Assembly (NCBI RefSeq): GCF_020386635.1
Contig: NZ_CP081942.1
Span: 4,154,001 to 4,218,000 of the forward strand
Direction: 5' to 3'
DNA from: Pseudomonas sp. MM211
GTDB taxonomy: Bacteria; Pseudomonadota; Gammaproteobacteria; Pseudomonadales; Pseudomonadaceae
Length of the DNA stretch: 64,000 nt
The translations under genes were made by a program, and so were the position numbers. Shown piece by piece: positions 8,609 to 61,002 of the stretch. The notes under the pieces were generated by a model. That model saw only the letters and a program-made list of their open reading frames with translations, searched no databases and was not told where the DNA came from. Every line of letters begins with the position of its first letter. Position 1 is the first letter of the stretch.

Positions 8609-8630
8609 CCCTCGAGAAACACCGTTTGAC

Positions 8631-8668
8631 GGGGCGGACGCGCCAGGCATGGCGTCCGCCCCTTTTTT
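8631..8668 (+). terminator. Terminator after the rhodanese gene
   Basis: GGGGCGGACGC and GCGTCCGCCCC form an 11-bp GC-rich stem with a 10-base loop, followed by six T. It is a textbook rho-independent terminator 22 bases past the stop codon. Confidence 0.92.
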
Positions 8669-8718
8669 ATGGCCTGCCATCCCTGGCGGCCACCCTGCGG
8701 GCCGTCGCAAGCAACGTT

Positions 8719-8742
8719 AAAAATCGCTCCCGGCGATTTTTT
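8719..8742 (+). terminator. Second hairpin, possible terminator
   Basis: AAAAATCGC, a short loop and GCGATTTTTT form a small stem with A and T runs on both sides, so it could act in either direction. It lies 50 bases past the stronger terminator. Confidence 0.5.
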
Positions 8743-8764
8743 ATGGGCGCCCTCGACGGATCCC

Positions 8765-8796
8765 GTAGCCCGGCGTTGAGCGAAGCGATACCCCGG
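8765..8796 (+). repeat. Dispersed 30-bp repeat, copy 1
   Basis: The sequence GTAGCCCGGCGTTGAGCGAA continues GCGATACCCCGG. Closely related copies lie at 42800-42829 (inverted) and 58992-59022. All three are intergenic, and the ends (CCGGG / CCCGG) are complementary, so each can fold. It resembles the short interspersed repeats common in pseudomonads. Confidence 0.65.
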
Positions 8797-8860
8797 ATCT
8801 GCCGCGATCATTACCTGCCCGATTCCACCCAACGGACAACCGTCAATGGAGCGACCTTCC

Positions 8861-10018: not shown

Positions 10019-10040
10019 AGATGACTCTTGAGCATGAGTC

Positions 10041-10350
10041 GGTGGTGGGCTGAAGCCCACCCTACTCCCCAGGGGCATGAAACGTAGGGTGGCGCTTTAG
10101 CCCACCAAAATCTTTCAACACCGACGGTGGCTGGCGGTTCAACGCATGCGGTTCGGAGCGTCGGGCTGTGGGCGTTGTGGGTGGTGGGCTGAAGCCCACC
10201 CTACTCCCCAGGGGCATGAAACGTAGGGTGGCGCTTTAGCCCACCAAAGCCATTCAACACCGATGGTGGCTGGATGCTCAAAGCATACGGGCCGGAGCGT
10301 CGGGCTGTGGGTGTTGCCGGTGATGGGCAGAAGCCCGCCCTACTCGCTGT
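10041..10350 (+). repeat. Tandem repeat, 139-bp period, with nested palindromes
   Basis: Units begin at 10041, 10180 and 10319, exactly 139 bases apart. The first two are nearly identical over the whole unit and the third is partial and diverged. Each full unit holds two palindromes, GGTGGGCTGAAGCCCACC and the related GGTGGCGCTTTAGCCCACC, separated by ACTCCCCAGGGGCATGAAAC. This looks like a BIME-type array of REP elements. It fills the gap between two convergent genes (the YeeE-type gene and recD) and could form strong cruciforms or stop transcription from both sides. Confidence 0.9.
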
Positions 10351-10357
10351 TGGTGAG

Positions 10358-12382: not shown

Positions 12383-15300
12383 GCCAGTACCTCCACGGGC
12401 TCGCCGAGAAACAGCGCGTCCAGTTTTTCGATCAGCGCCCGCTCCGGCCGCGCCAGGTACTGCCCTGCCGCCGGTGCACGCAGGAACAGATACAGCGCGC
12501 CGCCCATGTGCCGGCCGTAGTCGTAATCGGCCAGGCGCAACCGCAAGTGGCGATGCAGGGCCAGCACGTAAAGCACGTACTGCAGATCGTAACGGTGGCT
12601 GGCCACCGCGGCGCTCATGGCGTCAGCGGTATAGGCCTGCTCGTCGGCGCCCAGCCAGTTGGACTTGTAGTCGACCACGTAGTAACGGCCCTCATGCTCG
12701 AACACCAGGTCGATAAAGCCCTTGAACATGCCGTTCAAGGTATCCGGGCTCAGTTGCGGGCGCGCCACGCCGGGCATTTCAGAGCGTTGCACCAGCGCAT
12801 CCAGACGCAGCACGTCGACCCGGCGGGCCTCGAACCAGAACTCCAGCTCCGCCTGGTACTCGCCCAGGGTCGCCAGGCTCACCGACTGCCCATTACCCAG
12901 CGCCATGGGCTGCACCAGCAGGCCCTGCAGCCACAGCCACAGCGGCTCGATCCAGGTTTCCAGGCCGCGTCGCTGACAACGCCGCGCCAGGTGTTCGCGC
13001 AGCACATCCGGCGCCGCCGCCATCTCCGCGAAGCCTTCCGCCGCAGCGATTTCCAGCAAGCCATGGAGGAAGGTACCGGGGTTCGGCCCGCGCGGAAAAC
13101 GGTGCAGCCCCTGGGCGGAGACCGGAATCTGCTCCAGCGCCAGTGCCGGGCGCTCGTCGTCACTGGCGATCTGCACGGCCGAGCTGTCCGGTGAAACGTC
13201 GTCATGGCGATCAATCGTACTGGCCTCGCCCTCCTCCATGCGCAAGGCACTGTAGGAGGCGATCCACCAATGCTCGGCAGCACGACGTGATGGCGTGCGC
13301 CACTGCGGCTCGAAGGCGTCGGCATCCTGCGCGCGGTATTGCTGATCACTGGCCTCGGGGGCCGGCAACGCCACGCAGCGAGGAGGATTGGCCAGCGGGC
13401 TCAGCCAGTCGATCAGTTGCGCACTCTGCGCCAGGGGCTGCCCGCCACCGAGCAGATAACCAAGGGCGCACTGGTGCAGGCGCGAGGTCTTGGCGGTGCC
13501 GATTTTCAGGTCCGCGATACCCAGCCAGCAGGCGTGCTGGGCGCGGGTCAGCGCCACGTAGAGCAGACGCAGGTCTTCACCCAGGCGCTCCTGCTCGGCC
13601 TGAGCCAGGCTGACCTCGTCGGGTTTGAGCAGCAGCCGGCGGCGCTCGCCGTCGTGTACCTGCACCGGTTTCTTGTCGTCCAGCGGGCGGAAGGAACAGA
13701 TGAAGGGCAGGAACACCAGCGGGTATTCCAGGCCCTTGGATTTGTGGATGGTCACCACGCGCACCAGCGCATCGTCGCTTTCCAGGCGCAGTACCTGTTC
13801 CTCGGCAGCCTGACCGCGTCCGGCCAGGGACTCGCCAAGATGACGGATCAGTGCCAGCTCGCCGTCCAGTTCGGCGGCGGCCAGCTGCAGCAGCTCGGCC
13901 AGGTGCAGCAGATTGGTCAACACCCGCTCGCCGTCGGGACGGCTCATCAGCCGCTGTGGCAGGCCGAAATCCTGCAGCAACTGGCGCAACATCGGCAGCA
14001 CGCCCTGGCGCTGCCAGCGCTGGCGGTAACCACGAAATTGCATGACCCGCGCCTCCCAGAAGCGCTCGTCGAGGTTCAGCTGTTCCAGCTCGGTGAGGCT
14101 CAAGCCCAGGGTCGAACTGGCCAGCGCGGCGCGCAGCGGACGATCCTGATCGGGCTCGGCGCAGGCGCGCAGCCACAGCAACAGGTCATGGGCTTCCACG
14201 GTGTCGAACACCGAATCCTTGTCCGACAGGTACACGCTGCGTACGCCTCGCATGGCCAGCTCGCCACGAATCGCCTGGGCTTCCTTGAAATCGCGCACCA
14301 GCACGGCGATATCGCTGGGCCGCAAGGCCGTCAGCTCGTCGCCTTTGAGAAAACCGGCGCGCTGCTGCTGGCCAAGCACCAGCAGGCGGACGATCTCTGC
14401 CGCGGCACTGCCGGCCAGGGCGTCCAGATAACGCCCCTTGGCGACCGCTTCGTCGCTGGGCAGGTGCCAGAGGTTGAGCGCCGACTGCGCCTCGCCCTCG
14501 ACCGTCCAGACCTCCTTGCGCCCTTGAGCGCCGACCGCAATGAACGGCAGGTCGTCACGCAGCAGAAAGGCGCCCTGCCCGTCCTCGCGTGACTCGGCCA
14601 GCTGGAACAGCCCGTTGACCGCCTCGACCATGTGCTCGCTGGAGCGGAAGTTGGTGTCCAGGTTGTAATGCCGCCCAGCGGTGGCACGCCGTGCACGCAA
14701 GTAGGTGTGGATGTCCGCGCCGCGGAAGGAATAGATGGCCTGCTTGGGGTCGCCGATCATGAACAGGCCGCAGTCGTCGCGATTCGCCTCCACCTGATAC
14801 AGGGTGTCGAAGATGCGGTACTGCAGCGGATCGGTGTCTTGGAATTCGTCGATCAGCGCCACCGGGAACTGCTGGCGAATCACCTCGGCCAGACGCGGGC
14901 CGCTGTCGCTCTGCAGGGCATCGTCCAGGCGGGTGAGCATGTCGTCGAAACCCATCTCGGCGCGCTGGCGTTTCTCGCGGTCGAAGCGCTGGCGGATCCA
15001 GGCGGCGGCGTGGCGCAGCGCGGCATCGCCCGGTGCGGGCAGCCCGTCGAGCTGCGCCTTGAGCGTGGCCATGGCATCCAGTGCCGGATGCGCAGGCGGC
15101 ACCCCAACCTTCCAGGCCTCGGCCAGGCCGTCCGGGGTCAACCGCGTGAAGCCGGTGCCGATATCCAGCACTTCATCATCGCCCAGGGCCCAGGCGCGCA
15201 GCTTGTCGAACCAGGGCTTGTAGAAACGTGCCTGCAGCTTTCTGGCATCGACCTGCTTGTCGGCTGCCGCCTGCTCGAGCAGGCCCTGCAACTCGTCGGC

Positions 15301-47031: not shown

Positions 47032-47829
47032 TCAGGCTCGCTGCCGGAACGGCGCCAGAAACTGCTGGGCGCGGGCCGTTTGCGGGGCACTGAAGAAGGC
47101 TTCCGGCAAGCCGCTTTCAACGATGTGGCCGCCATCCATGAAGATGATCCGGCTGGCGACCTGCCGGGCGAACTCCATTTCATGGGTGACGATCACCATG
47201 GTCGCACCCTCGGCGGCCAGATCGCGCATCACCTCCAACACCTCGCCGACCAGCATCGGGTCGAGGGCGCTGGTGGGTTCGTCGAACAACAGCACGTCCG
47301 GCTTCATGGCCAGCGCACGGGCAATGCCGACCCGCTGTTTCTGCCCGCCCGAGAGCCGCGACGGGAACATGTTGGCCTTGTCGGCAAGCCCGACTTTGGC
47401 GAGCAGCGCCATGGCCTCGTCATGCACCTCCTTGCGGTTGCGCTTCTGCACGTGCACCGGGGCTTCCATGATGTTGCCCAGTACGGTCAGGTGCGGCCAC
47501 AGGGCGAAGTGCTGGAACACCATACCGATGCGCGAGCGCATCTGCGCCAGTTCGGCATCGCCGATCCGCGCGCCGCCCTTGTGTGCACCGAAGCGCTTGG
47601 AGTTGAGACGGATGCTGCCGGCGTCCGGCGTCTCCAGCCAGTTGATACAGCGCAGCAGGGTCGACTTGCCGCAGCCCGACGGCCCGAGCAGGCACAGCAC
47701 TTCGCCACGCTCCAAATCCAGGGAGACATCTGCCAGTACGCGGTTGGCGCCAAAGGACTTGGACACGCCCTGCACCTGTAGCACCTTGGTCGTTGCGGGT
47801 GTATCCACGTTGTTCATAAGACTGCTCAT
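47032..47829 (-). CDS. Polar amino acid ABC importer, ATP-binding subunit
   Basis: A 265-residue ATPase of the HisP/GlnQ type. Walker A is [20 protein letters not shown], the Q-loop [20 protein letters not shown], the signature [20 protein letters not shown], Walker [14 protein letters not shown] and the H-loop VTHEMEFA. Its ATG overlaps the stop of the upstream permease by 4 bases, so it is the last gene of a four-gene importer operon (binding protein, two permeases, ATPase) that starts at 50009. An insertion of about 12 residues near residue 75 ([14 protein letters not shown]) is within the variation of the family. Confidence 0.95.
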
Positions 47830-48488
47830 GCGCGGCGCACCTCGGCGTAACGGGTAAATAGGTTGGTGAGCAATTCGATGGCCAGACAGATCACCCAGTA
47901 CATCAGCACCGCCGACAGGAAGCTGGCGAAGGGAATGAAGTAGGTCGACTGAATGGCGTTGATCGCCGCCGTCAGCTCGGTCACGGCGATGATTCCCAGA
48001 AAGGCGCTGTCCTTGACGATCTGGATCATCTGGTTGCCGATCATCGGTGTCGCGCGCAGCAGCACCGGCGGCATGATGATGCGCCGCAGCAGGCCGAAGC
48101 CGTGGAAGCCGAACGCCCTGCCCGCCTCGATGGTGTCGTGGGGCAGATCCTTCCAGGCGCCCTTGAGGATGATCGCCATGTAGGCGGTGTTGTAGATGAT
48201 CAGCGCGACGATGCCCGACACCCAGTTGCTCAGCTGGATACCCCCGGATGGCAGCCCGAAATAGATCAGGTACACCAGCAGCAGGAACGGCGTGCAGCGC
48301 ATGCACTCGCAGTAGAACGAAGCGCTGCGACCAATGAACACGCGATTCGACATCAGCAGCGGAGTGAGCAGAATCCCCAGCAGCAGCGACACGCTACCGG
48401 CGATCAGGATGAACACCAGGGTGTTCATGAAGCCTTCCAGAATGGACGGATAGTGCTGCCAGACGGTGATGAAATCGCTGAGGTTCAT
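47826..48488 (-). CDS. Polar amino acid ABC importer, permease 2
   Basis: A 220-residue HisM/GlnP-type permease with about five membrane segments, starting [19 protein letters not shown]. The EAA motif, [20 protein letters not shown], contacts the ATPase. Its start overlaps the preceding permease stop by 4 bases, and its own stop overlaps the ATPase start. Two different permeases suggest a heterodimeric channel. Confidence 0.94.
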
Positions 48489-49132
48489 ACGGCGGCCTCC
48501 TGACCCTGGACGTTGCGCTCCAGGCGACGTTGCAGCCTGACCAGCAGAAAGATGATCGCCACGTACAGGCACAGCCCCACCAGCAACGGCGGCAATGGGT
48601 CATAGGTTCTGGCGCCCACGCGCTGGGCTGCACGGGTGATCTCGACCATGCCGATCACCGCGATGGCCGGGCTGGACTTCACCAGCATGGTCATCTCGTT
48701 GACCAGCCCGGGCAGGCTCGACTGCCAAACCTGGGGCAGCACGATGCGCATCACCCGCATGCGCCGCGGCATGCCGAAGGCAAGCGCCGCGTCGTACTGC
48801 TGTCGATCGAAGGCCAGCAAGGCCGCGCGCCATATCTCGCAGTTGAATGCAGCGGCGGTGACCGAAAGGGAAATCAGTGCGGCGAGCAGCGGGCTCAGCG
48901 AAATGCCGAACTGCGGCAGGCCGAAGTACACCAGCAGAATCAGGGTCACCGCAGGGCAGGATCTGATGATGCTGACGTAGACGAAGGCCAGTTGCCGGGC
49001 TACCGGGATCCGGGCCCAGCGCACCAGCGCCAGGCCCAGCCCCAGAGGAATGCCAATAACGATTCCTACCAGCGACACACCCACCGTGGCAAAGGCACCC
49101 TGCAGGATGCTCCAGTAGTCGTATGCATTCAT
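48485..49132 (-). CDS. Polar amino acid ABC importer, permease 1
   Basis: A 215-residue permease, MNAYDYWSILQGAFATVGVS at the start and five hydrophobic segments. The EAA-like loop reads YDAALAFGMPRRMRVMRIVL. It lies 10 bases after the binding-protein gene and overlaps the second permease by 4 bases. Confidence 0.94.
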   Translation of the reverse strand: MNAYDYWSILQGAFATVGVSLVGIVIGIPLGLGLALVRWARIPVARQLAFVYVSIIRSCPAVTLILLVYFGLPQFGISLSPLLAALISLSVTAAAFNCEIWRAALLAFDRQQYDAALAFGMPRRMRVMRIVLPQVWQSSLPGLVNEMTMLVKSSPAIAVIGMVEITRAAQRVGARTYDPLPPLLVGLCLYVAIIFLLVRLQRRLERNVQGQEAAV

Positions 49133-49142
49133 GATGGCTTTA

Positions 49143-50009
49143 TCAGTTCACGTTAAGCGGCATGTTCTCGAAGCGCACGCCCAACCATTTTTCCTGCAGG
49201 CGATACATCTCACCGCTTTCACGGATTTTCAGCAGTGCGTTGTTGATCACCTCAAGTACGCCATCGTTGCCTTTCTTGACGGCCCAGGCTTTGTGGCCAG
49301 GCTCACCGATCGGCTGCCCCAGCTCGAACACATCGCCACGCTCCTTGACCAGCGCACGCAAGGTCAGATCGGTATTGACCACTGCATCGATACGGCCTTG
49401 GGCCAGATCCTGATAAGCCTCGGGATAGCCGTGGTACTCCATGATTTTCTTCACGCCCTCGCCTTTGCTGGCCTTGAGTTTGGCGTCGAATGCCTTGAGT
49501 TCGGCCAGGAAGGCACTACCGGTTTCAGCGCCGACCACCTTGCCGATCAGGTCTTCAGCGGTCTTGATCGAGCTGCCCTTCTTAACCCCGTAGTAGGTCG
49601 CCGATTCAGCCGTTGGCGTGGTGTAGTCGAAGCTCTGCTTGCGTTCGGCGGTGACCATGACTGCAGACAGTGCCATGTCGAACTTGCCGCTGGTGACGCC
49701 GGAAAGGATGCCAGCCCAGGGCATGATCTGCTGACGCAGTTCCAGGCCGGTTTCCTTTTCCACCAAGTCCTTGAGTTCGTTGTCGTAGCCGGTCGACTTG
49801 CCGTTCTCCATGAATTCGAAGGGACGGTAGTCATCTTCAGTGGCGACCACGACGTAGCCCCGAGCCTTCACCTCTTCAGCGGTCATGGCCTGGCTGATGG
49901 ATACGGCGCCGATGGTGGTCGCCAGTGCCAGCGCGATAGCCGAAAGAGATTTACCAACGTGCCCCTTGGCAACAGCCGTGGAGCAAATAAGGTCGCGAAT
50001 TGCTGACAT
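49143..50009 (-). CDS. Polar amino acid ABC importer, substrate-binding protein
   Basis: A 288-residue periplasmic binding protein of the family 3 type. A signal peptide (SLSAIALALATTIGAVSIS, cleaved near AMTAEE) precedes GYVVVATEDDYRPFEFMENG, then DLVEKETGLELRQQIMPWAG and FDYTTPTAESATYYG. Arg and Asp residues for alpha-amino and carboxylate groups are not obvious, so the ligand may differ from a plain amino acid. It heads the operon; its control region (50010-50575) has operator palindromes shared with the divergent amidohydrolase operon and the Rieske operon. Confidence 0.93.
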   Translation of the reverse strand: MSAIRDLICSTAVAKGHVGKSLSAIALALATTIGAVSISQAMTAEEVKARGYVVVATEDDYRPFEFMENGKSTGYDNELKDLVEKETGLELRQQIMPWAGILSGVTSGKFDMALSAVMVTAERKQSFDYTTPTAESATYYGVKKGSSIKTAEDLIGKVVGAETGSAFLAELKAFDAKLKASKGEGVKKIMEYHGYPEAYQDLAQGRIDAVVNTDLTLRALVKERGDVFELGQPIGEPGHKAWAVKKGNDGVLEVINNALLKIRESGEMYRLQEKWLGVRFENMPLNVN

Positions 50010-50090
50010 GCTGACTTCCTTCTAGTTATTGACGTTGACATCAATGCGGGCACGCAAAACCACGGCCGGCGCAGCACAAGGGTCAAAGCA

Positions 50091-50106
50091 AGTGGCATGC
50101 CATTTA
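50091..50106. promoter_or_regulatory. MarR-type operator, site 1
   Basis: AGTGGCATGCCATTTA; core TGGCATGCCA (50093-50102) is a perfect palindrome. It lies about 85 bases before the binding-protein ATG on the minus strand. It matches the TGGYATRCC pattern seen at five other places in this island. Confidence 0.7.
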
Positions 50107-50202
50107 TTTTTTACGCTTAATAATCAAATATTTAATTAATTTTCAGGTTTTTTGATAGCTGAATCATGTGCATTGTTCGCCCCAACAGCGCTCGCGATAT
50201 GG

Positions 50203-50214
50203 GTGGTATGCCAC
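50203..50214. promoter_or_regulatory. MarR-type operator, site 2
   Basis: GTGGTATGCCAC is palindromic but for the two centre bases. With the flank it reads GTGGTATGCCACTTAA, very close to site 5 in the Rieske control region read from the other strand (AGTGGTATGCCACTT). Confidence 0.8.
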
Positions 50215-50354
50215 TTAAATGGGCGAGACTTCATTCACTCGAGCCCCTTGCCTGCAGTCACGTTCTGCTCGAGGCGAAGGCAGGCTTGCGCTCTAGCTGC
50301 GCATGAGCCCATTCAAGGGCGTATCACGCCTGCATCAAAACAAGGCACAAATAG

Positions 50355-50368
50355 GTGGCATACCCCAC
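50355..50368. promoter_or_regulatory. MarR-type operator, site 3
   Basis: GTGGCATACCCCAC. Core TGGCATACCC, one or two changes from a perfect palindrome. It lies about 210 bases before the amidohydrolase ATG. A further half site, AGTGGCAATT, is at 50381-50390. Confidence 0.65.
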
Positions 50369-50416
50369 TTTAGTTCGTAAAGTGGCAATTTAGATTCGCC
50401 GCCAGCAACCATAAAG

Positions 50417-50432
50417 AGTGGTATACCCCGCT
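50417..50432. promoter_or_regulatory. MarR-type operator, site 4
   Basis: AGTGGTATACCCCGCT. Core TGGTATACCC. It lies in the AT-rich segment at 50390-50490, which probably holds the amidohydrolase promoter about 100-150 bases before its ATG. Confidence 0.65.
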
Positions 50433-50575
50433 ATAAATAAACTAATAAATCTATATTTATCAATATCTTGAGATTTAAATAGAAACTGGAATGGGATAAA
50501 TGGCACAGCCGTTGCACCCTCTTGGGCATACCTCAACGCAGTGTTGGGTTCGCAACTAGTAGAAGGTGAAGAACA

Positions 50576-51838
50576 ATGGCTGATGTGATCCTCAAAGGTG
50601 GTTACCTGATCGACCCCGCCCAGGGCTACGACGGGAATTTCGACATCGCCATCAGCAATGGTCGTATCGAGGCGATCACCGCGCCTGGCGCTGCCGGTGC
50701 GGCAACCACGGTGATCGATGTCAGCGGCAAGCTGGTTACGCCCGGCCTGATCGACACCCACGGCCACGTCTTCGAATACGTGACCGGCCGCTTCGGCCTG
50801 GATGCCGACCTCGCTGGCGTGCATTCGGGGGTGACCACCCTGATCGACCAGGGCGGGCCATCGTGCATGACGCTGCCGGCGTTCCGCGAGCATGTGGTCA
50901 AGGCCAAGAAAACCCGCGTATTCGCCTACCTGTCGGCCTATCTGGTCGGCGGCCTGGAGGGCCATTTCTACCCCAGCCTGTATACCCCGGAGTGCGTGGA
51001 CGTCGACGCGACCGTGCGCGCGGCGCTGGCCAATACCGACATCATCAAGGGCTTCAAGGCCCACGCCGAACTGGGCGGTTTTGAACGCTGGGGCAGCGAT
51101 GTGATGGCGATGAGCGCGGAGATCTCCCGGCGCGCCGGCATGCCGCTGTACATTCACTTCGGCCAGCTGTGGCCAAGCCCGGGAGACCCGAGCCCGGTGC
51201 ATCCCGACTCGATCCTCGCCGATGTGGTGCCGATGCTCAAAGCTGGCGATATCCTCGCCCACCCGTTCTCCCGTCATCCGGGCGGCGTGGTCAGCGCCGA
51301 CGGCAAGCTGCACCCCTTCATGACCCTGGCCAGGGACATGGGGCTGAAGGTGGATGTCGGTCACGGCTCGCACTTCAGCTTCCAGTGCGCGCGCATCGTT
51401 CTCGATGGCGGCGTGATTCCCGACACCCTCGGCGCCGACATGCACGGCTACAACACCCTGGTACCCGCGCCGCCGGGCACACCGAAAGAGCACTCGGATA
51501 CCGAGCACATGTTCTTCGGCAAGCAGCGCTTCTCCATGGCCTCGGCGATGACCAGCATGCTGGCCCTGGGCTTGCACATCAACCATGTGGTGGCCATGGC
51601 CACCTGCAACCCGGTGGAGGTGTTCGGGCTGCCGAAAGACCTCGGCACCCTGGCCATCGGCAACCCGGCCGACATCAGCGTGCTCAACGATGAACGTGGG
51701 CGCTTCCAGTTGAAGGACAACGAAGGCACCGCCGCCTACAGCGACCGCCTGCTGACACCGGCGTTCTGCTTGAAAGATGGCGAGCGCTTCGACGCCGTCG
51801 CCTCGATCCTGCCGCCCTACTCCAGCTTTGCGGCGTGA
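50576..51838 (+). CDS. Amidohydrolase-superfamily metallohydrolase (cyclic-amidase-like)
   Basis: A 420-residue enzyme with AAGGTGAAG before the ATG. The first metal site is LIDTHGHVFEY. The carbamylated lysine is likely in IIKGFKAHAELGG. Further ligands are YIHFGQLW and AHPFSRHPGG, and LGADMHGYN has the catalytic Asp. This arrangement is that of the dihydroorotase/hydantoinase/adenine-deaminase-like branch (the EF0837-type deacetylases). It hydrolyses C-N bonds, usually of cyclic amides or N-acyl compounds. It is the first gene of an operon with the amidase at 52022 and is divergent from the ABC importer; its promoter region has four operator palindromes. Confidence 0.85.
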   Translation: MADVILKGGYLIDPAQGYDGNFDIAISNGRIEAITAPGAAGAATTVIDVSGKLVTPGLIDTHGHVFEYVTGRFGLDADLAGVHSGVTTLIDQGGPSCMTLPAFREHVVKAKKTRVFAYLSAYLVGGLEGHFYPSLYTPECVDVDATVRAALANTDIIKGFKAHAELGGFERWGSDVMAMSAEISRRAGMPLYIHFGQLWPSPGDPSPVHPDSILADVVPMLKAGDILAHPFSRHPGGVVSADGKLHPFMTLARDMGLKVDVGHGSHFSFQCARIVLDGGVIPDTLGADMHGYNTLVPAPPGTPKEHSDTEHMFFGKQRFSMASAMTSMLALGLHINHVVAMATCNPVEVFGLPKDLGTLAIGNPADISVLNDERGRFQLKDNEGTAAYSDRLLTPAFCLKDGERFDAVASILPPYSSFAA

Positions 51839-51850
51839 TTGAACACTGGG

Positions 51851-51919
51851 ATCGCCCGCATGCGGGCTCCTACGGGGTATGCAGAAAATCGCATCTGTAG
51901 GAGCCGGCTTGCCGGCGAT
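51851..51919. repeat. Inverted pair of REP elements (BIME)
   Basis: ATCGCCCGCATGCGGGCTCC (51851 on) and GTAGGAGCCGGCTTGCCGGC (51897 on) are REP elements facing each other, separated by 23 bases. It is the typical pseudomonad REP. It lies between the amidohydrolase and amidase genes and could lower transcription into the second gene. Confidence 0.85.
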
Positions 51920-52021
51920 ATTTGCCCGGCAGGCGCATGAATGGCGGCCTGGCTATCCGCGCCATGCGTGTCGGGCTCGCTCACCTGTTATCTTTCATCG
52001 CTCACTGTCAGGAACATGCCC

Positions 52022-53173
52022 ATGAAGCTTGCCAACGGAATGATCACCGATGATCCGATCCATCTTGCCGCCACCGGTTCGGGCCCCCTCGACGGCCTGA
52101 GCTTCGCGGTCAAGGACGTGATGGCAATCGCTGGCCACCGCACCGGCTGCGGTCACCCGCTGTGGCGTGATAGCCACTCGCCTGCGCAAACCACCTCGCC
52201 GCTGATCGAACAACTGCTGGCCGCGGGCGCCACGCTGACGGGCAAGACTCACACCGACGAGCTGACCTACAGCCTGGCCGGCAGCAACGTCCACTACGGC
52301 ACGCCACCCAACCCCGCCGTGCCGGGTGCAACCGCGGGTGGCTCGTCGAGCGGCTCGGCATCGGTGGTGGCCGCAGGCCTGGTGGATTTCGCCATGGGCA
52401 GCGATACCGGTGGCTCGATTCGTATTCCAGCCAGCTACTGCGGGATTTACGGGCTGCGCCCCAGCCACGGAGCACTCGACTACGCACATTGCGCGCAACT
52501 GGCACGCAGCTTCGACTGCCTGGGCTGGTTCGCCCGCGATGGCGAAACCCTGGAACGGGTCGGCAAGGTGCTGTTGCCAGCGGGTGAGCATCGCCTGCAA
52601 CGTGTGCTGCTGGTCAGCAACGTGCGTGAGGAGGCTGGCGAAGCGGTGCTGGCGCAATTCAACAGCTGGCTGACACTGTCGCGCCTGCCGCTGCCCTGTG
52701 ATGGCTGGCAGGCACTGCCGTCGCTGGCCGACTTCGCCAACGATTTCCGCACCTTGCAGGCCTTCGAAGCCTGGCAGGAATACGGCAACTGGATCAGCCA
52801 GCACCAGCCGCAGTTCGGCCCAGGGGTGAAAGAGCGCTTCGCCAATGCCAGCCGCGTCAGTGAGACGGATGCTACCGCTGCGCAGAAACGCCTCGGCATA
52901 TTGCGTGCAGAGCTGGATGCCCTGCTCGGCGATGACGGCGTGCTGTGCCTGCCCACTGCACCCAGCCCGGCGATCGCCCTGACGGCCAGCGACGAGCAGG
53001 TCGAGCAGATTCGCCTGGCGACCCAGCGGATGACCGCCATCGCCGGCGTCGGCGGGTTACCCCAGGTATCCGTGCCGCTGCTGCAGACCGCTGACGGCCC
53101 GGTGGGCGTTTCGCTGATTGGCCCGCGCGGCAGTGACCGTGCGCTGCTTGCCCTGGCACGTCAGCTGAGCTGA
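52022..53173 (+). CDS. Amidase (amidase-signature family)
   Basis: A 383-residue amidase-signature enzyme. The ATG at 52022 has AGGA 8 bases upstream; ATG at 52016 is too close. The catalytic Lys is in LSFAVKDVMAIAG, the cis-Ser in PGATAGGSSSGSASVV and the nucleophile Ser in MGSDTGGSIRIPAS. Relatives include AtzE-type and aryl-malonamidase-like enzymes. It is short for the family (usually 450 or more), missing part of the variable C-terminal half. It likely releases ammonia from an amide made in this pathway. It has no AtzG-like small partner gene next to it. Confidence 0.9.
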   Translation: MKLANGMITDDPIHLAATGSGPLDGLSFAVKDVMAIAGHRTGCGHPLWRDSHSPAQTTSPLIEQLLAAGATLTGKTHTDELTYSLAGSNVHYGTPPNPAVPGATAGGSSSGSASVVAAGLVDFAMGSDTGGSIRIPASYCGIYGLRPSHGALDYAHCAQLARSFDCLGWFARDGETLERVGKVLLPAGEHRLQRVLLVSNVREEAGEAVLAQFNSWLTLSRLPLPCDGWQALPSLADFANDFRTLQAFEAWQEYGNWISQHQPQFGPGVKERFANASRVSETDATAAQKRLGILRAELDALLGDDGVLCLPTAPSPAIALTASDEQVEQIRLATQRMTAIAGVGGLPQVSVPLLQTADGPVGVSLIGPRGSDRALLALARQLS

Positions 53174-53212
53174 GGCCGCGTTGGCCTGCTTGCTCGACGC
53201 CTGATACAGAGA

Positions 53213-53728
53213 TCAGTTGCCGGTCTCTGTAGGCTGCAGGCGCAAGGGAGCACTTCTGACCTCGTTGTTGGCCTCCACCAGGCGGATCAGCTGGAGCATG
53301 AACAGGTCGCGCTCTTCGGCTGGCAGCGCCTCCAGTGTGCGGTCATGGGCACGCTGAACGGCATCGTTCATCTTCGTGACCAGGGTTTTGCCCTTGCGCG
53401 CCAGTTTCACCAGTTTGACGCGCTTGTCCTTCTCGCTCTGCCGGCGCAATAACAACCCCCGCGCTTCGAGGCGGGGAATCACTTCGGCGACACTGGTGCG
53501 CTCCAGACCAATGGCCTGAGCGATGGTGTTCTGATCCATCTCGCCCAATATGCCCAGTGAACTGAGCAGGCTGTACTGCACGGGCGTGATGTCATGGCCT
53601 CGGGTTTCCTCCTGGAACAGGCTGCAATGCACCTGATGCAGGCGACGTATCAAAAAGCCAGGTCGACCCAACAGGCTCGAGCGACTGACGGCCTCATCGA
53701 CCATGGCTTTTACTTCTTGGTTGTCCAT
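53213..53728 (-). CDS. MarR-family transcriptional regulator
   Basis: A 171-residue MarR regulator with the winged helix at about 60-110: LGEMDQNTIAQAIGLERTSV then AEVIPRLEARGLLLRRQSEKDKRVKLV. The helices on both sides form the dimer interface and ligand pocket. It lies between the amidase gene (convergent) and the Rieske operon (divergent). Its own start and that of the Rieske gene bracket two operator palindromes, so it probably represses both. It is the only DNA-binding regulator in 47-58 kb, so it is the best candidate for all six palindromes. Confidence 0.92.
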   Translation of the reverse strand: MDNQEVKAMVDEAVSRSSLLGRPGFLIRRLHQVHCSLFQEETRGHDITPVQYSLLSSLGILGEMDQNTIAQAIGLERTSVAEVIPRLEARGLLLRRQSEKDKRVKLVKLARKGKTLVTKMNDAVQRAHDRTLEALPAEERDLFMLQLIRLVEANNEVRSAPLRLQPTETGN

Positions 53729-53957
53729 ATTGCGCTCCGTAGCTCCCGGCTACTCGCTGATGATTAACAGTTGCGTCGTTACGTTTCGACAGATCCACCA
53801 GCGCCAGCAATCGTCAGCGCTATCCCTACCCCGCTCAGGCTCGTCGGCGCTAACCACAAAACGCCAAACGACAATTCCCCTCAGCACGAATCATGCCGTC
53901 AAAGCTGGAGGCTTCTTGTTCGCATTTACGCCGTCAAACTACCACACCTGCCCATAT

Positions 53958-53973
53958 AAGTGGCATACCACTC
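53958..53973. promoter_or_regulatory. MarR-type operator, site 5
   Basis: AAGTGGCATACCACTC. Core TGGCATACCA with flanking AGT/ACT gives a 14-base near-perfect palindrome, the best of the six. It lies about 235 bases before the Rieske ATG and 230 bases before the MarR ATG. Confidence 0.8.
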
Positions 53974-54079
53974 AAATAGCGCACGCTTATATAGCAGTGC
54001 GCTGCCTTTAGCGCTCCCTCCCGGTATTGAAGGAAATCGGCTGATTGCGCCCCGCCTGGGTTGCAGGCGCAGACAAAAA

Positions 54080-54095
54080 ACGTGGCATACCTCTT
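54080..54095. promoter_or_regulatory. MarR-type operator, site 6
   Basis: ACGTGGCATACCTCTT. Core TGGCATACCT, one strong half site and one weaker. It lies about 110 bases before the Rieske ATG, next to CTTGCTTTTCATTGG, a possible promoter segment. Confidence 0.65.
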
Positions 54096-54193
54096 GCTTT
54101 TCATTGGCCATTGGAAACATTCGCGCACTGCGACTTTTCATCCCAGCGCTTAGCCGGCCTGGAATCCTTATGTGCAGGAACGGAGTTCGACCC

Positions 54194-55234
54194 ATGAATT
54201 GCAAAGAGCATCTCAACAACCTGGACGCCCCGCTGGCACCCGCCCTGCTCAATGACTGGCATGTGGTCGCCAGCAGCGAGGAAGTGGTAGAGGGCACGCT
54301 GTATCCGTCCACCCTGTTCGACCGTGATCTGGTGATCTGGCGGGACTCCAAGGGCCAGGCCTATGTCTGGGAAGACCTGTGCATTCATCGTGGCGCGCGC
54401 CTGTCCAAAGGCTTCATCGCGTCCGACAAGGTGATCTGCCCGTACCACGGCTGGAACTACGACGGCAGCGCGCAGTGCACGCTGATTCCGGCATCGCCCA
54501 ACGAAACGCCGATGAAAAAGGCCAAGGCCATCGCTCACCATGTGAAGGAGGCCTACGGTTTCATCTGGACCTGCCTGGGTGAGCCGGCACAGGATATCGC
54601 CGCCTTCCCCGAATGGCTCGACGACAGCTACAAGAAAGTGGTCTGCGGGCCTTACGAGTTCAAATCCGGCTACCGCGCGCTGGAGAACTTCATCGACCCG
54701 ACCCACTTTCCCTTCGTACACGCTGGCGTCAACGGCCTGATGGACGCACCGGATCCCATCGGTCAGTACCGGGTGTGGGAAGAGGATGGCGTGCTGGCCA
54801 CCTCGGAAGTACAGGTCACCCAGCCCTATGGCGACCCGCGCCAGGTGCCCGTCATCGCCTACTACGCCTACAAGTGCCTGCGCCCGGGCGTGGCCTATTT
54901 CAAGAAGCGCCTGATCATTTCCGACCCGCTGCGCGCTCATGAAGGTAACGAGAACGACCGCTTCTGCACCTTCTTCACCATGCAGCAGGTCAGCGAGACG
55001 CGCAGCATCGTGCGCATCTGCTGCGCCATGAACTTCGACCCGATGCCCAGCGATGAAGACGTGCGCCGCCGCCAGGATCTGGTCTACGCCCAGGACAGCG
55101 CGATTGTCGACACCCAACGCCCCGAGCGCATCCCCACCGACCTGCGCCAGGAGCTGCACCACAGCACCGACCTGCTCGGCATGAAGTACCGATCCTGGCT
55201 ACGCGGCATGGGTATCAACTATGGCACCGTCTGA
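54194..55234 (+). CDS. Rieske non-haem iron oxygenase, alpha subunit (VanA/NdmA-like)
   Basis: A 346-residue Rieske oxygenase; GGAG lies 8 bases before the ATG. The Rieske cluster ligands are LCIHRGARLSKGF and ICPYHGWNYDG (C-x-H, C-x2-H). The mononuclear iron site is NFIDPTHFPFVHAG (D-x2-H-x4-H). Size and the lack of a beta-subunit gene match the single-component-oxygenase monooxygenases such as vanillate O-demethylase and caffeine N-demethylase, which remove methyl groups or hydroxylate. The C-terminus MKYRSWLRGMGINYG resembles that group. It overlaps its reductase gene by 14 bases. Confidence 0.92.
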   Translation: MNCKEHLNNLDAPLAPALLNDWHVVASSEEVVEGTLYPSTLFDRDLVIWRDSKGQAYVWEDLCIHRGARLSKGFIASDKVICPYHGWNYDGSAQCTLIPASPNETPMKKAKAIAHHVKEAYGFIWTCLGEPAQDIAAFPEWLDDSYKKVVCGPYEFKSGYRALENFIDPTHFPFVHAGVNGLMDAPDPIGQYRVWEEDGVLATSEVQVTQPYGDPRQVPVIAYYAYKCLRPGVAYFKKRLIISDPLRAHEGNENDRFCTFFTMQQVSETRSIVRICCAMNFDPMPSDEDVRRRQDLVYAQDSAIVDTQRPERIPTDLRQELHHSTDLLGMKYRSWLRGMGINYGTV

Positions 55235-56174
55235 AACGCTCGCGCCGACGTTCCGCCTCACGGCCATGCGCTACGGGGCACAGGACATCGTGCTCTACGA
55301 GTTCCAGCCGCTGAATGGCCAGCCCCTGGCTGCGGTTCAGGCCGGCGCCCACCTGGACATCGTGCTGCCCAACGAGCAGATCCGCTCGTACTCGCTGCTC
55401 ACCCCGCTGTGCGACGCCGAACGCTATGTGGTCGCGGTCAAGCGCGACGCCGACGGCCTCGGCGGCTCGCGCTGGCTGCACGATCAGGCACGGGTCGGCC
55501 AGACCTTCGTCCTGCAGCCGCCACGCAACCATTTCGCGCTCGCCGATGGCGATGCCCCGGTGCTGCTGCTTGCCGGTGGCATCGGTATCACGCCGCTGTT
55601 CTCGATGCTCGCGGAGCTGCGTGGTGCCGGGCGCAGGGTGCATCTGCACTACTGGAGCCGGGCTGCCGAGCAGACGCTGTTCCTCGATGCATTGGAACGC
55701 AGCGACGACGTGACCCTGCACTTCTCCGGCACTGCGGGCCGCAAGTCCCTCGCCGACGTCCTCACCGCTGTCGACCCGCGCACCGAGATCTATTGCTGCG
55801 GCCCGCTGCGTATGCTCGCCGACCTCGAGACGCTGAGCGCCGCCCATGGCCTGGAGCACGTGCGCGTCGAGCGCTTCCAGGGCGCCAGCCCACCGGCCAC
55901 AGCTAGCGAAACCTTCACCGTGGTGCTCGCGCGTTCGGGCACCGAAGTGCAGGTCTGCAAGGGCGAAACCATCCTCGGTGCTCTACTCGAGGCAGGTGCC
56001 GATGTCATGTACTCCTGCGAGCAAGGCATCTGCGGCGCCTGCGAAGTGAAGGTCGTGGAAGGCGATCCGCTGCACGCGGACTCGGTGTACTCGGCCGAGG
56101 AACATGCTCAACGCGGCAGCATGATGATCTGCTGCTCCAGCAGTAACAGCGGCCGGCTGGTGCTGGATATCTAG
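55221..56174 (+). CDS. Rieske oxygenase reductase (VanB-like, FMN/NAD/2Fe-2S)
   Basis: A 317-residue electron-transfer partner. FMN-binding domain with IRSYSLLTP (about 55), NAD domain with LLAGGIGITPLFSMLAEL (about 110) and EIYCCGPLRML, and a C-terminal plant-type ferredoxin with YSCEQGICGACEVKV and a fourth Cys in MMICCSSS. This order (flavin-NAD-ferredoxin) is that of phthalate dioxygenase reductase and VanB. It overlaps the oxygenase gene and so forms a two-component system. Confidence 0.95.
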   Translation: MAPSETLAPTFRLTAMRYGAQDIVLYEFQPLNGQPLAAVQAGAHLDIVLPNEQIRSYSLLTPLCDAERYVVAVKRDADGLGGSRWLHDQARVGQTFVLQPPRNHFALADGDAPVLLLAGGIGITPLFSMLAELRGAGRRVHLHYWSRAAEQTLFLDALERSDDVTLHFSGTAGRKSLADVLTAVDPRTEIYCCGPLRMLADLETLSAAHGLEHVRVERFQGASPPATASETFTVVLARSGTEVQVCKGETILGALLEAGADVMYSCEQGICGACEVKVVEGDPLHADSVYSAEEHAQRGSMMICCSSSNSGRLVLDI

Positions 56175-56199
56175 AAACTCTAACAAGCGAGCGTACCCC

Positions 56200-57759
56200 A
56201 TGACCGATCTGGCAGCCTCCGATCTCCAGCCTGCGCTGGAAAAGCTGTATGCCGTACGCCCCGTCTGGCAACGGGTGGTCAGCGCCGCCGAGGCCATAGG
56301 CCTGGCCGACAGAACCCTGCTGCACGCCGGGCCGCCCTTTCGTCTCGGTGAGCAACCGAGCGCGCCGATCCTGTCATCCGCGGTGCTCTGCTGCCTGCAC
56401 GAGGGCTGGGCCGACAGCGAGGCTGCAGCGCAATACCTGATCACCAGCGGTGAAGTGCGCCTCGAATCGGCACAGGATTTCAATGTGGTGACGCCGCTGG
56501 CTGCGGTGATTTCACCGACTACCACGCTGGTCGAGGTGGTCGATGCCGCCGGGATCAACCCGCGCCCCTGCTGGTCGATCCTGGGCAGTGGCCGGGGGCC
56601 ACAGATCCGTTTCGGCACGCGCCAGCAGGCGGTAATAGAACGTCTGGCATGGCGCGATGGCGAGCTTGCCCGGGCATTGCAGAGCGCCCTGGCCGCCGGC
56701 CCCATCGATCTGCTTCCGCTAGCCGTCATCGGGCTGCAGCGCGGTGACGACCTGCACAGCGTCACCAGCGGTGCCAGCCGGGCACTGCAGGAACGCTTGC
56801 TGCCGCTACTGGAAGGTGCAGACGAGGTCGAGCGGATGCTCGATGAAACACCGCTGTTCTTCCTGACGCTGTGGATGGCCGCCTGCCATTTGCTGCTCGA
56901 TACGCTGTGCGATGAGCCCGCGGCACGATCGCTGCTGGTGGGGCTGGCCGGCAACGGTATCGAGGTCGGCATCCGGCTGGCTGGCGACCCCACTCACTGG
57001 CGCACGGCCACAGCCCACACGCCACAAGGGCCGCGCCTGAAAATGGGTGACGAGCCAATCAGCCCGATGCTTGGCGACAGCGGCGTGATCGATGCCGCCG
57101 GCTTCGGTGCCCAGGCCTGGCACCACGCCACCGGTGTCGCCGCCGATATGGCCGGCTGGCTGCCGGGGCGCCCGGCTGGCGCACCGCACTGGCAGGTAGG
57201 CCAGCACCCGCTGTTCGCCCCCTTCGGCCTGGGAGCCGCTATCGACATCGAGCGGATCGACCCTCGCGCACGCTTGCCGAACGTGGCTATCGCCATGCTC
57301 GATGCCCGGGGCGAGGCCGGCCTGCTCGGGCGCGGCGTATGCCAGACACCGGCACGCCTGTACGGGTCGCCTGCAGCCGATGAGCCGGAGTTGAACGATC
57401 CTCTGGTACTCGCCCAGGTCAGCGCGGCCTTCGAGCGTTACGAACAGGCATTGATCAGCAACGACATCGCCACGCTGGACGAGCTGTTCTGGCAGAGCCC
57501 GCATACAGTTCGCTACGGCGCCACGGAAAACCTCTACGGCAGCGCAGCGATCCGCGCGTTTCGTGATGGCCGCCCGGCAACCGGACTGTCACGCAAGATC
57601 ATCGAGCGCTCGATAACCAGCTTCGGCAGCGACAGTGCCGTCACTCATATCGCCTTCAGCCGTGCGGGCAATCCCCGCACCGGCCGCCAGACTCAGACCT
57701 GGATTCGCATCGCAGGCGCCTGGCGGATCGTGTCCGCCCATGTCAGCAACATGGATTAG
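56200..57759 (+). CDS. Fusion of a DUF1116 (AllG-like) domain and an HpxZ/AtzH (DUF3225) domain
   Basis: A 519-residue protein. Residues about 10-390 match DUF1116, the AllG/YlbE family (oxamate carbamoyltransferase subunit): RTLLHAGPPFRLGEQPS, CLHEGWADSEAA, SPMLGDSGVIDAAGFGAQAW and VAIAMLDARGEAGLLGRGV. Residues about 395-519 match HpxZ/AtzH of the SnoaL-like fold: AFERYEQALISNDIATLDEL, RYGATENLYGSAAIRAFRDG and QTWIRIAGAWRIVSAHVS. Both halves look complete and the frame is unbroken. AllG normally works with AllH and FdrA, which are absent here; HpxZ is tied to oxalurate breakdown. It is 25 bases after the reductase gene, so it belongs to the Rieske operon. Catalytic role unknown. Confidence 0.85.
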   Translation: MTDLAASDLQPALEKLYAVRPVWQRVVSAAEAIGLADRTLLHAGPPFRLGEQPSAPILSSAVLCCLHEGWADSEAAAQYLITSGEVRLESAQDFNVVTPLAAVISPTTTLVEVVDAAGINPRPCWSILGSGRGPQIRFGTRQQAVIERLAWRDGELARALQSALAAGPIDLLPLAVIGLQRGDDLHSVTSGASRALQERLLPLLEGADEVERMLDETPLFFLTLWMAACHLLLDTLCDEPAARSLLVGLAGNGIEVGIRLAGDPTHWRTATAHTPQGPRLKMGDEPISPMLGDSGVIDAAGFGAQAWHHATGVAADMAGWLPGRPAGAPHWQVGQHPLFAPFGLGAAIDIERIDPRARLPNVAIAMLDARGEAGLLGRGVCQTPARLYGSPAADEPELNDPLVLAQVSAAFERYEQALISNDIATLDELFWQSPHTVRYGATENLYGSAAIRAFRDGRPATGLSRKIIERSITSFGSDSAVTHIAFSRAGNPRTGRQTQTWIRIAGAWRIVSAHVSNMD

Positions 57760-59046: not shown

Positions 59047-61002
59047 TCAGGTTCGGAACTGCCTGACTAGGCCTTGCAGCTCGACGCCGAGGCGCGCCAG
59101 TTCTGCACTCGAAGCGGCGGTCTGTTGGCTGGCGCTGGCGCTCTGCTCGCCGATGTCGCGTACTCGGGTAACGCTCTCGCTGATGGTTTCCGCTACCGCG
59201 CTCTGCTCTTCCGCCGCGGCAGCGATCTGCTGATTCATCTGTTCGATGGAGCTCACCGCCTGGGTGATGCGCCCAAGCGCCTCGCCTGCTTCGCCGGCCA
59301 GGCTCACGGTGCGTTGAGTCAATGCACGGCTGCCTTCCATCTGCGCCGAGGCACCACCGGCCAGGCGCTGCAGGTTGGCGATCAGGTTTTCGATTTCCTG
59401 GGTCGAGTCATGGGTGCGTCGCGCCAGGGCTCGCACTTCATCGGCCACCACGGCGAAACCGCGGCCCTGGTCGCCGGCGCGGGCGGCTTCGATAGCGGCG
59501 TTGAGCGCCAGCAGGTTGGTCTGTTCGGCGACCGCGCGGATTACCTCGAGCACGCTGCCGATGCGCCCGCTTTCCTGATTCAGTTCCTGCATGGCTTCAG
59601 CCGACTGCTCGACCTCCTGGGCCAGCTTGCCGATCTGGCTGATCGCCTGCTGCACCACCTGATTGCCCTGCTGAGCTTCGCGATCAGCATCGGCGGCAGC
59701 CAGGGAGGCCTGCTCGGCGTTCTGCGCCACTTCCTGCACGGTGGCAGCCATCTGGTGGATCGCGGTAGCGGTCTGCTCGGTTTCCAGCTTCTGATTCTGC
59801 ACACCGGCACTGGTCTGCGCTGTGATTGCCGAGAGCTGCTCAGCCGCCGCCGCAATCTGCCCCACCCCAGCGCCAATTCGCCCGACCAGATCGCGCAGGC
59901 TGCGAGTCATGCCCTGCATGGCCTCGAGCAACTGGCCGAGTTCGTCGTGACGATTAAGCGGTAAATCCTGACTCAGGTCACCGCCAGCGATGCGCTGGGC
60001 GAAGGCCACGGTCTGACGCAGCGGCGCGACAATGGAACGGCTGATGCTCAGCGCCGCGAACAGGCCAATCAACACGGCCGCCCCACCCATGCTGCCGAGT
60101 AGCAGCATGGCGCTGTGGCTGTCGTCGGTCATGCTCTGCTCTTCGACGTTCTTGGCCTGCTCGGCCAGCGCCAGCACCTGGTCGGCCTGCTGGAGCATGG
60201 CCGCATCAGTGGCTTTGCTCTGTTCGTAGAGCGCCTGGAAATTGGTGAACGCCTGTTGGTAGGTACCAAGCGCCACCAGGGCTGCTTCGATGGCGCGCTT
60301 CTGATCGTCGTTGAGCCACACCATCAGGCCGCTGGCCGACGATTGCAGGTCGTAGCTGACGAAATTCCAGTCCTCCAGCGCAGCCTGCGAGCCATCGATG
60401 ATGAACTGGCTCTCATGGCTGCGCAGCTCGAGCATGCGCTTGCTGAGGTTGGAGGCGGTTTCCGCCAGGGTCAGCGGGTCGCTGCCGCGAAGCTGGTCGC
60501 CAGCCAGGCGTAATTCACGAACGGCGTCGTACATGCCCAGCTCGATCATCTCGAACTGGCTGCGCGCTTCCTGGGCCGCTTCGCTCATCTGGGTACGGGC
60601 TTCGCTGGCGCGGGCCTGCTGCTGCACGCTGGCGTCGAACTGCTGCAGGTAGTCCGCGGTGGCGGTGTCCATGGCCTGCAGACGTTCACGTTCGGTGGGG
60701 GTGGCACTGGCGATCTGCTCGGCCAGGCCGGTTCGCACCTTGGCGAGCTGCTCACGCATGCGCTGCGCATCGGCTTCGCTGTGGCTGATGGCGTAATCGC
60801 GCTCCATGCGCCGCGCACCGAGTATCTGCGCGTCGATGGTCGACAACCCGAGGGACTGGGCGTGCCCCTTCATCACCGCCTGCACGGCGACGAAACCACT
60901 GCCGGTCACGGCAACGGTCAGCAACAGCACCAGGCCAAAGCCCATCAGAAGTTTCTTGCCTACGGAAAGGTCGACGAATAGTCGAGTGGCAGAATGCAAC
61001 AT
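59047..61002 (-). CDS. Methyl-accepting chemotaxis protein, HBM-like sensor domain
   Basis: A 651-residue chemoreceptor with GGAG 8 bases before the ATG. TM1 is at about 17-42 and TM2 at about 298-318. The large all-helical periplasmic domain between them resembles the helical bimodular type, as in the receptor at 21910, with which it shares size and layout but low sequence identity in the sensor. A HAMP domain and the signalling tip follow ([37 protein letters not shown]). The C-terminus ends RQFRT without a CheR-binding pentapeptide. Ligand unknown. Confidence 0.92.

Follow-up and report, generated by a model that had tools for sequence, protein, structure and literature searches.

A gene island at positions 47032 to 57759 of a 64,000-nucleotide stretch of the Pseudomonas sp. 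MM211 genome (contig NZ_CP081942.1, positions 4,154,001 to 4,218,000; hereafter the window) is a real and probably nitrogen-regulated catabolic system built from known protein families. We put the probability at roughly 0.5 that it serves to scavenge nitrogen from an N-heterocyclic carboxylate belonging to the cyclic ureides or cyclic imides. An earlier note on this DNA had proposed a catabolic island for a nitrogenous compound; every gene it named was found, at about the positions it gave, and its observation of the island is confirmed, while its interpretation as a whole is partly supported. Working from left to right, an ATP-binding cassette (ABC) importer on the minus strand, consisting of a polar amino acid-type ATPase (47032-47817), two permeases (47826-48488 and 48485-49132), and a family-3 solute-binding protein (SBP; 49143-50009), diverges from plus-strand genes for an amidohydrolase/deacetylase family metallohydrolase (50576-51838; NF006689, 393 bits versus a cut-off of 371) and an amidase (NF006169/PRK08310; NF006169, 459 bits versus a cut-off of 391), the latter starting at 52016 or 52022 in an open reading frame from 51941 and ending at 53173. 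A minus-strand gene for a MarR family regulator (53213-53728) diverges in turn from plus-strand genes for a Rieske non-heme iron oxygenase with a VanA_C domain (54194-55234), a reductase with Fer2 and NAD-binding domains (55221-56174), and a fusion protein. The first part of the fusion is AllG (DUF1116, PF06545; 56200-57378, Pfam match at residues 86-294) and the second is AtzH/HpxZ (57379-57759; PF11533 at residues 397-519; HpxZ model NF033625, 178 bits versus 135). The two divergent pairs described earlier, SBP/metallohydrolase and MarR/Rieske, are correct.

We infer the following order of reactions. The ABC importer would take up the acid, and the Rieske oxygenase and its reductase would hydroxylate a ring carbon next to nitrogen, a step that a molybdenum hydroxylase would perform in relatives. 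The metallohydrolase would open the resulting cyclic amide. The amidase, together with the AtzH domain, would then remove the terminal amide nitrogen, and the N-carboxy product would be decarboxylated to an oxamate-type compound, from which HpxW-type enzymes, encoded within the island in some relatives and elsewhere in the window's genome, would release the last ammonia to leave oxalate. The AllG domain would act without AllH, probably as a partner or binding subunit for a ureido or oxamyl intermediate. Expression would need sigma-54, and hence probably nitrogen limitation, with MarR holding it back at dyads over and upstream of the promoters.

The possibility raised earlier that these genes are not linked elsewhere is answered by a conserved-neighborhood comparison, in which the same genes cluster in seven other loci, so that their linkage exceeds chance. 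Eight loci retain the genes for importer, MarR, Rieske oxygenase, reductase, metallohydrolase, fusion, and amidase together as one unit: the window, four Pseudomonas loci (L002-L005, of which L002 is from Pseudomonas flavescens LMG 18387), Amphritea (L006), Halopseudomonas pelagia CL-AP6 (L007), and genome G169 (L060). Gene order differs among the eight, but the gene set is constant. A search with the AllG fusion retrieved 22 loci from named genomes (L002-L023, where AllG is present by construction), six of them with the whole set. Comparisons below are of 35 loci, and the counts cover the DNA stretches examined around each locus; L061, with a gene layout identical to L007, was treated as its duplicate and left out, and L001, L024-L028, L068, L069, L071, and L078 repeat or border counted loci and were not counted. 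AllG passes our limits in 30 of the 35 and is cut at the stretch edge in L089. Overall, the system is rare. The metallohydrolase was found at E <=1e-80 in two of 369 genomes of the class, the window's included, and Rieske homologs of at least 80% identity occur in three of 298 family genomes (again with the window's), never more than 4 kb from the fusion; five weaker Rieske homologs (32-56%) occur in four family genomes without a fusion match. The ATPase is 68-80% identical in more distant relatives that possess this importer, and MarR is at least 60% identical in 19 of 34 related loci and 45-47% identical in four.

Two oxygenase classes alternate among the loci. The Rieske pair (counted at >=40% identity within the stretches examined) is present in eight of the 35 loci, a molybdenum hydroxylase (genes near the metallohydrolase or AllG) in 25, and both, with respect to Rieske oxygenases of the window's type, in none. 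The molybdenum enzyme is composed of large, flavin adenine dinucleotide (FAD), and 2Fe-2S subunits plus a CoxG-like part, and its loci belong to Burkholderiales, Azospirillum, Methylobacterium, and others. L022, whose molybdenum large subunit fell below the limits of the 35-locus comparison, was counted from separate annotation, and the L016 and L018 stretches start within the molybdenum gene and contain no metallohydrolase. Neither oxygenase type is in view in L010, and the damaged L023 was assigned to neither type. On the metallohydrolase tree, the Rieske label requires at least two changes on well-supported branches, and L058 and L059, which carry the molybdenum enzyme but come from the window's own family, are placed among the Rieske loci; at least one change between types is needed on the AllG tree. 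The metallohydrolase also occurs in 18 plasmid records, nine of which were inspected (H1, H4, H5, H7, H9, H10, H13, H15, and H18); molybdenum genes adjoin it in eight of these, but not in the 41% Massilia match. Luciferase-like monooxygenases, present in L010, were considered as a third replacement for the Rieske pair but not upheld as a general one, as L084 has both a 74% relative and the molybdenum enzyme. A PhyH-family dioxygenase gene is found in seven loci (L006, L010, L011, L016, L018, L087, and L092), alongside a Rieske enzyme, a molybdenum enzyme, or neither.

The earlier note left it open whether the Rieske enzyme demethylates or hydroxylates. Its Rieske and VanA_C domains are both present, and both metal-site motifs (CxH/CxxH and DxxHxxxxH) are intact; here and for the amidase and metallohydrolase, the catalytic residues are those familiar for each family. 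The nearest solved relatives are SxtT/SxtDIOX, followed by the methylxanthine demethylases NdmA/NdmB, although the window enzyme differs from all of these in being 80-87% identical across genera within its own island type. If the enzyme were an NdmA-like N-demethylase, the compound broken down would be a methylated purine, a methylhydantoin, or something creatinine-like, and the hydrolases would dismantle the demethylated ring. The NdmA/NdmB relationship, the VanA_C C-terminal domain, and the addition of a PhyH-type dioxygenase or NtaA/DmoA-type flavin monooxygenases in some relatives are consistent with this idea, but 25 loci have a molybdenum hydroxylase in place of the Rieske pair. Molybdenum hydroxylases carry out ring hydroxylation of N-heterocycles, and we know of none that acts as an N-demethylase. 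Methylxanthine-like demethylation is thus weakened and we judge it unlikely. Because the molybdenum enzyme replaces the Rieske pair, because its large subunit is closest to quinoline 2-oxidoreductase (1t3q), and because a 56% homolog of the Rieske enzyme is found in a pyridine cluster, we favor hydroxylation of a ring carbon next to nitrogen as the predicted Rieske step. Molybdenum systems of the 1t3q type differ from the window, which has no such enzyme; in relatives, it is linked to the metallohydrolase and to AllG, AtzH, and amidase.

The same pyridine cluster suggests an alternative substrate, a ring acid of the pyridine or indole type, with a nicotinate- or indole-type oxygenase and with hydrolases that act on open amides. 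The cluster containing the 56% homolog has a 2,5-dihydroxypyridine dioxygenase (E 1.5e-119 to 7cn3), an FAD monooxygenase, and arylmalonate-decarboxylase-family and isochorismatase-family proteins; a 54% homolog is plasmid-borne and clustered there with genes of the cyclase, nitrilase, and cupin types, and two Azospirillum islands adjoin a pyridine cluster of this kind. Nicotinate-type 2,5-dihydroxypyridine clusters usually have a molybdenum nicotinate hydroxylase. However, a third Azospirillum island has no pyridine neighbor within the 14 kb shown, domain annotation of the window revealed no ring-cleaving dioxygenase in the island, nor any other of the ring-cleavage genes of nicotinate-type clusters, and the AtzH, amidase, and HpxW-like genes better match ureide or oxamate chemistry. 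A pyridine or indole acid therefore seems to us an improbable substrate, to about the same degree as a methylated compound. The clusters around Rieske homologs of 44-49% identity (L055, L056, and L057), which share genes with one another and in L055 are annotated with aminotransferase, lysine/ornithine-oxygenase, and HpaB-type genes, gave no hint of a substrate.

If the compound is instead a cyclic-ureide or cyclic-imide carboxylate, the importer and the metallohydrolase bear on its uptake and ring opening. Arg123 of the SBP is kept in the window and in ten relatives among 13 aligned sequences, and threonine occupies the position at which amino acid binders have aspartate; the outliers L010 and L074 (22-23% identity) are of another kind. 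In GlnH, the ammonium-binding aspartate of the amino acid binders is Asp157, and we take Arg123 to bind a carboxylate in this fold. With Arg123 invariant and threonine replacing the aspartate, the imported ligand is probably a carboxylate without a free alpha-amino group. Importers differ in other loci and include branched-chain amino acid types. Next to the island in L004, L007, L059, and L060 are a GMC-type oxidoreductase gene and an aldehyde dehydrogenase gene, and a -24/-12 site precedes the GMC gene or its operon; these genes would fit entry via the corresponding alcohol. The metallohydrolase motif (HxH plus K, H, H, and D) is intact, and residues H62, H64, K158, K161, H194, H229, and D288 are invariant in 14 sequences; we presume these to be the metal ligands, as in the superfamily generally. 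The structure model of this protein is of low confidence (predicted local distance difference test [pLDDT] 54). Separately, a gene for a TIGR03427 'urea' binding protein is located just upstream of the molybdenum-type operon of G143 (L058 and L071). Several kb further is a UAAP1/DUF1989 gene group with, as judged by eye, a second such gene, a large carboxylase, and an allophanate-hydrolase-like gene; DUF1989-type matches are also found in L008, L009, L014, and L074.

The DUF1116-HpxZ fusion is genuine: it is a single 519-residue frame in the window, its model has a pLDDT of 88, and solved structures match both of its parts. AllG and AtzH form one frame in nine of the 19 loci that have the AtzH part. 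The AllG domain scores 170.6 bits against a PF06545 cut-off of 27 and matches the fold of 3clq; the fold comparison listed no other fold and is silent on function. Equivalents of the AtzH residues Tyr22 and Arg46 are retained at fusion residues 414 and 438, and the Lys and two Ser loops of the amidase are intact. According to PMC6219798, in which these two residues are named, AtzH decarboxylates the product of its partner amidase. A gamma-glutamyltransferase-family, HpxW-like gene is present in eight of the 35 loci, namely the Rieske loci L004-L007 and L060 and the Azospirillum molybdenum loci L086, L089, and L090. Both chains of the L004 protein match 5hft best among solved structures (345 and 272 bits, versus 152 for 2e0w), which we take to be the Klebsiella HpxW oxamate amidohydrolase. 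The window's own genome has a 56% HpxW homolog at 1.12 Mb. A stand-alone HpxW-like gene of that genome (L070, 9321-10904) lies beside what appear by eye to be TRAP-type-transporter-like genes. The oxalurate/oxamate chemistry suggested earlier is strengthened by the HpxW-like genes; given these, the AtzH/HpxZ domain, and the amidase, oxalurate- or oxamate-type intermediates are the most economical reading.

What AllG contributes can be viewed differently. The AllG part might still make carbamoyl phosphate from an N-carbamoyl acid, in the manner of the Escherichia coli oxamate carbamoyltransferase, with AtzH in a separate branch. Its Pfam score would be consistent with this, as would PMC11326118, in which E. 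coli AllG works with AllF and AllH and all three proteins are needed for oxamate carbamoyltransferase activity. However, AllH (PF11392) was absent from all six genomes with the system that were searched, the window's included, while the E. coli control was positive. Neither AllF nor carbamate kinase was among the annotated neighbors, although no search was aimed at AllF. Unlike in E. coli AllFGH, moreover, AllG is fused to AtzH here, and its gene is directly beside the amidase gene in five of the eight Rieske loci (L004-L007 and L060) as well as in a distant cluster (L064). The absence of AllH indicates that AllG either functions differently here or uses other partners, and carbamoyl phosphate formation is, in our estimate, slightly less probable than either a demethylase or a pyridine route. 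The L064 cluster (5312-12579) encodes a different AllG and amidase together with a Ring_hydroxyl_A Rieske oxygenase, a Fer2 reductase, an epimerase, and a PEP-mutase-family protein, and AllG-amidase adjacency thus recurs outside the system.

Nor does the island seem to be a variant of the ordinary purine/oxalurate (hpx-like) route, in which the oxygenase would act on a purine and the remainder would salvage oxalurate. In Klebsiella hpx, HpxDE is a Rieske-type pair, and HpxXYZ and HpxW handle oxalurate and oxamate; the island resembles it in the Rieske pair, the amidase, the HpxZ/AtzH domain, and, in the eight loci above, the HpxW-like enzyme. The HpxW activity is cited in PMC5270733. The Paraburkholderia loci L008, L009, and L014 also have an allantoate amidohydrolase/carbamoylase-family gene beside the MarR gene, the L008 protein scoring 413 bits, below the 452-bit cut-off of the best allantoate model but above that of TIGR01879. 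In contrast to hpx, the island amidase is of the PRK08310 family rather than AtzE/HpxY, HpxZ is fused to AllG, an NF006689 metallohydrolase and MarR are added, and general annotation showed no urate, allantoin, or ureidoglycolate enzyme family in the window island; the genome has an AtzE-type HpxY (759 bits), HpxZ, and allantoate amidohydrolase elsewhere (L062). We therefore think this route very improbable. The cyanuric acid operon atzDGEHF of Pseudomonas sp. ADP and other atzGEH clusters share with the island an amidase and an AtzH domain retaining Tyr22 and Arg46; the island differs in its amidase family, its Rieske or molybdenum oxygenase, and the AllG fusion, and no AtzD or AtzF was seen in it. 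A uracil-to-barbiturate route through ureidomalonate and malonamate was considered but not adopted: it fits molybdenum chemistry, and malonamidase E2 is among the solved relatives of the amidase, but it scores 84 bits there alongside many others, and HpxW suggests oxamate.

Regulation by nitrogen is suggested by sigma-54-type -24/-12 sites. The pattern TGGCAYN5TTGCW has 35 matches in 21 of the 35 loci, 30 of them no more than 260 bases ahead of a named system gene. The reversed pattern gave one match, 20 first-order simulations gave a mean of 2.05 and a maximum of five, and 48 other loci gave four in 379 kb. Five matches were not scored as preceding a named gene: those in L086 and L090 are about 42 bases before the annotated metallohydrolase start, L004 has one at 6281 before a Rieske start homologous to the window's and one at 16144 before an ABC/GMC operon, and that at 7200 in L058 precedes an unnamed gene close to MarR. 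Sites in the window precede the importer operon (50087-50102, minus strand), the metallohydrolase gene (TGGCACAGCCGTTGCA, 50501-50516, plus strand; identical in L002 and L003), and the Rieske gene (54083-54098, plus strand).

A second element, the dyad AGTGGYATRCCACT, is found over and upstream of the -24/-12 sites in Rieske-type loci. The pattern GTGGYATRCC has eight oriented matches at six sites in the 64 kb, all within the two divergent intergenic regions, against an expectation of 0.79, and none of 100 shuffles reached eight. Two of the six coincide with -24 boxes, GTGGCATGCCAT (50092-50103) overlapping the importer site and a dyad at 54082 overlapping the Rieske site (54082-54098 together). 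The excess is consequently in part promoter sequence, and the four free sites are the stronger evidence: GTGGTATGCCAC (50203-50214), GTGGCATACCCC (50355-50366), GTGGTATACCCC (50418-50429), and the perfect dyad GTGGCATACCAC (53960-53971), upstream of the Rieske -24/-12 site. Genome-wide, RGTGGYATRCCAY has five matches at three sites, all in the island (control, one); a 14-mer at up to one mismatch was found at four places in the genome, three in the island and one at 4374560, and at up to two mismatches was barely commoner than the control (35 versus 29 places). The dyads in 50005-50580 fall in blocks conserved in L002 and L003, and dyad sites recur in L004, L005, L006, L007, L010, and L060, near-full in all except L006. 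In L002-L005, L007, and L060, a dyad that overlaps a promoter has a free counterpart situated between 110 and about 200 bases further upstream. Two further full-core sites are inside a called gene (L073) and in a stretch without a called gene (L072). The dyad is likely the MarR operator. The single MarR regulon postulated earlier is supported by the shared motif in both divergent regions, but is incomplete as a description, since sigma-54-type sites precede three transcription units; MarR repression over a nitrogen-responsive promoter would be the simplest account. Alternatively, an enhancer-binding activator, rather than MarR, may use the free dyads.

Several observations weigh against a nitrogen-scavenging pathway of this form. 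No -24/-12 match was found in 14 of the 35 loci (some of which are ended by contig ends), and the dyad was not seen in most molybdenum-type loci. The Caballeronia molybdenum-type locus L087 carries a more distant Rieske-domain gene and a PDR/VanB reductase gene about 10 kb off, which is the reason the mutual exclusion was stated for the window's Rieske type, and the AllG tree is compatible with a single Rieske origin in 54% of bootstraps. The metallohydrolase family includes members that act on acetyl esters or amides, and ring opening by this enzyme is for that reason a prediction. AtzH is present in only 19 of the 35 loci, the amidase is below the AtzE family cut-off (199 versus 461 bits), and an HpxW-like gene is missing from 27 loci, the window island among them. 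In the stretches examined from Methylobacterium and Geminicoccaceae, AllG, AtzH, and amidase are all missing and an alpha/beta hydrolase takes their place, so the pathway may finish in another way. Biochemical or growth data for the gene set were not found in the open-licence PubMed Central (PMC) literature.

More broadly, and with somewhat less than even odds in our estimate, the loci would encode a hitherto undescribed way of oxidizing N-heterocyclic acids that is shared by Alphaproteobacteria and Gammaproteobacteria, the latter represented by Pseudomonas relatives and Burkholderiales. Rieske and molybdenum enzymes would be interchangeable for one ring hydroxylation, and the route would converge on oxalurate/oxamate-type intermediates. 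AllG would have been recruited from a carbamoyltransferase and fused to a decarboxylating AtzH, and sigma-54 promoters would have the -24 box built into the MarR operator in Rieske-type loci. The earlier note knew of no described pathway with this gene set, and none was found in the same open-licence literature. Our searches there likewise turned up no description of the AllG-AtzH fusion, of the way the genes are combined, of Rieske and molybdenum enzymes as alternatives, or of how the promoters are laid out, although all the protein families are known. The available portions of PMC6219798, PMC11326118, PMC12625717, PMC5270733, PMC12746152, PMC4016543, and PMC5748707 name no substrate for the set, and literature searches on the PDB codes 8WZY and 8JE0 gave chance matches only. 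The island thus provides a defined, recurring gene set for an organic-nitrogen pathway of which the substrate is the missing piece, and its sigma-54 and dyad layout suggests where that substrate should be sought, under nitrogen limitation plus inducer. It also allows the action of AllG and AtzH to be tested in an unfamiliar context, and the apparent use of two unrelated metalloenzyme classes for one reaction makes it a natural experiment.

The window metallohydrolase, with those of L002 and L003, is on a long branch away from the other Rieske-type loci, and the window amidase is only 41-46% identical to theirs and differently placed, despite the high identity of the Rieske enzymes; the metallohydrolase-amidase part (50576-53173) may have been exchanged within the lineage. 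A palindrome at 51850-51925, seen by eye and presumably of the repetitive extragenic palindromic type, separates these two genes, which may therefore not share one transcript. The Xylophilus locus L023 has its metallohydrolase region split over two frames and its AllG region shortened; by eye, the former ends in a short stretch resembling a Rieske C-terminus. A separate locus of the window's genome (L062; G000:C1:3980000-3999900) contains an AtzE/HpxY-type amidase, an AtzH-family gene, an allantoate amidohydrolase, and an importer, with a -24/-12 match at 6466. On a Rhodococcus ruber plasmid (L083 and L093), two DUF1116 genes are grouped with two Rieske oxygenases and reductases, MarR, nitrilase, cyclase, formate dehydrogenase, and malate synthase. 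Finally, a methyl-accepting chemotaxis protein gene (59047-61002, minus strand) is near the window island, with one gene between, and may encode a chemoreceptor for the island's compound; L022 also has such a gene adjoining its island, and in L087 one lies at a distance of about 4 kb from MarR.

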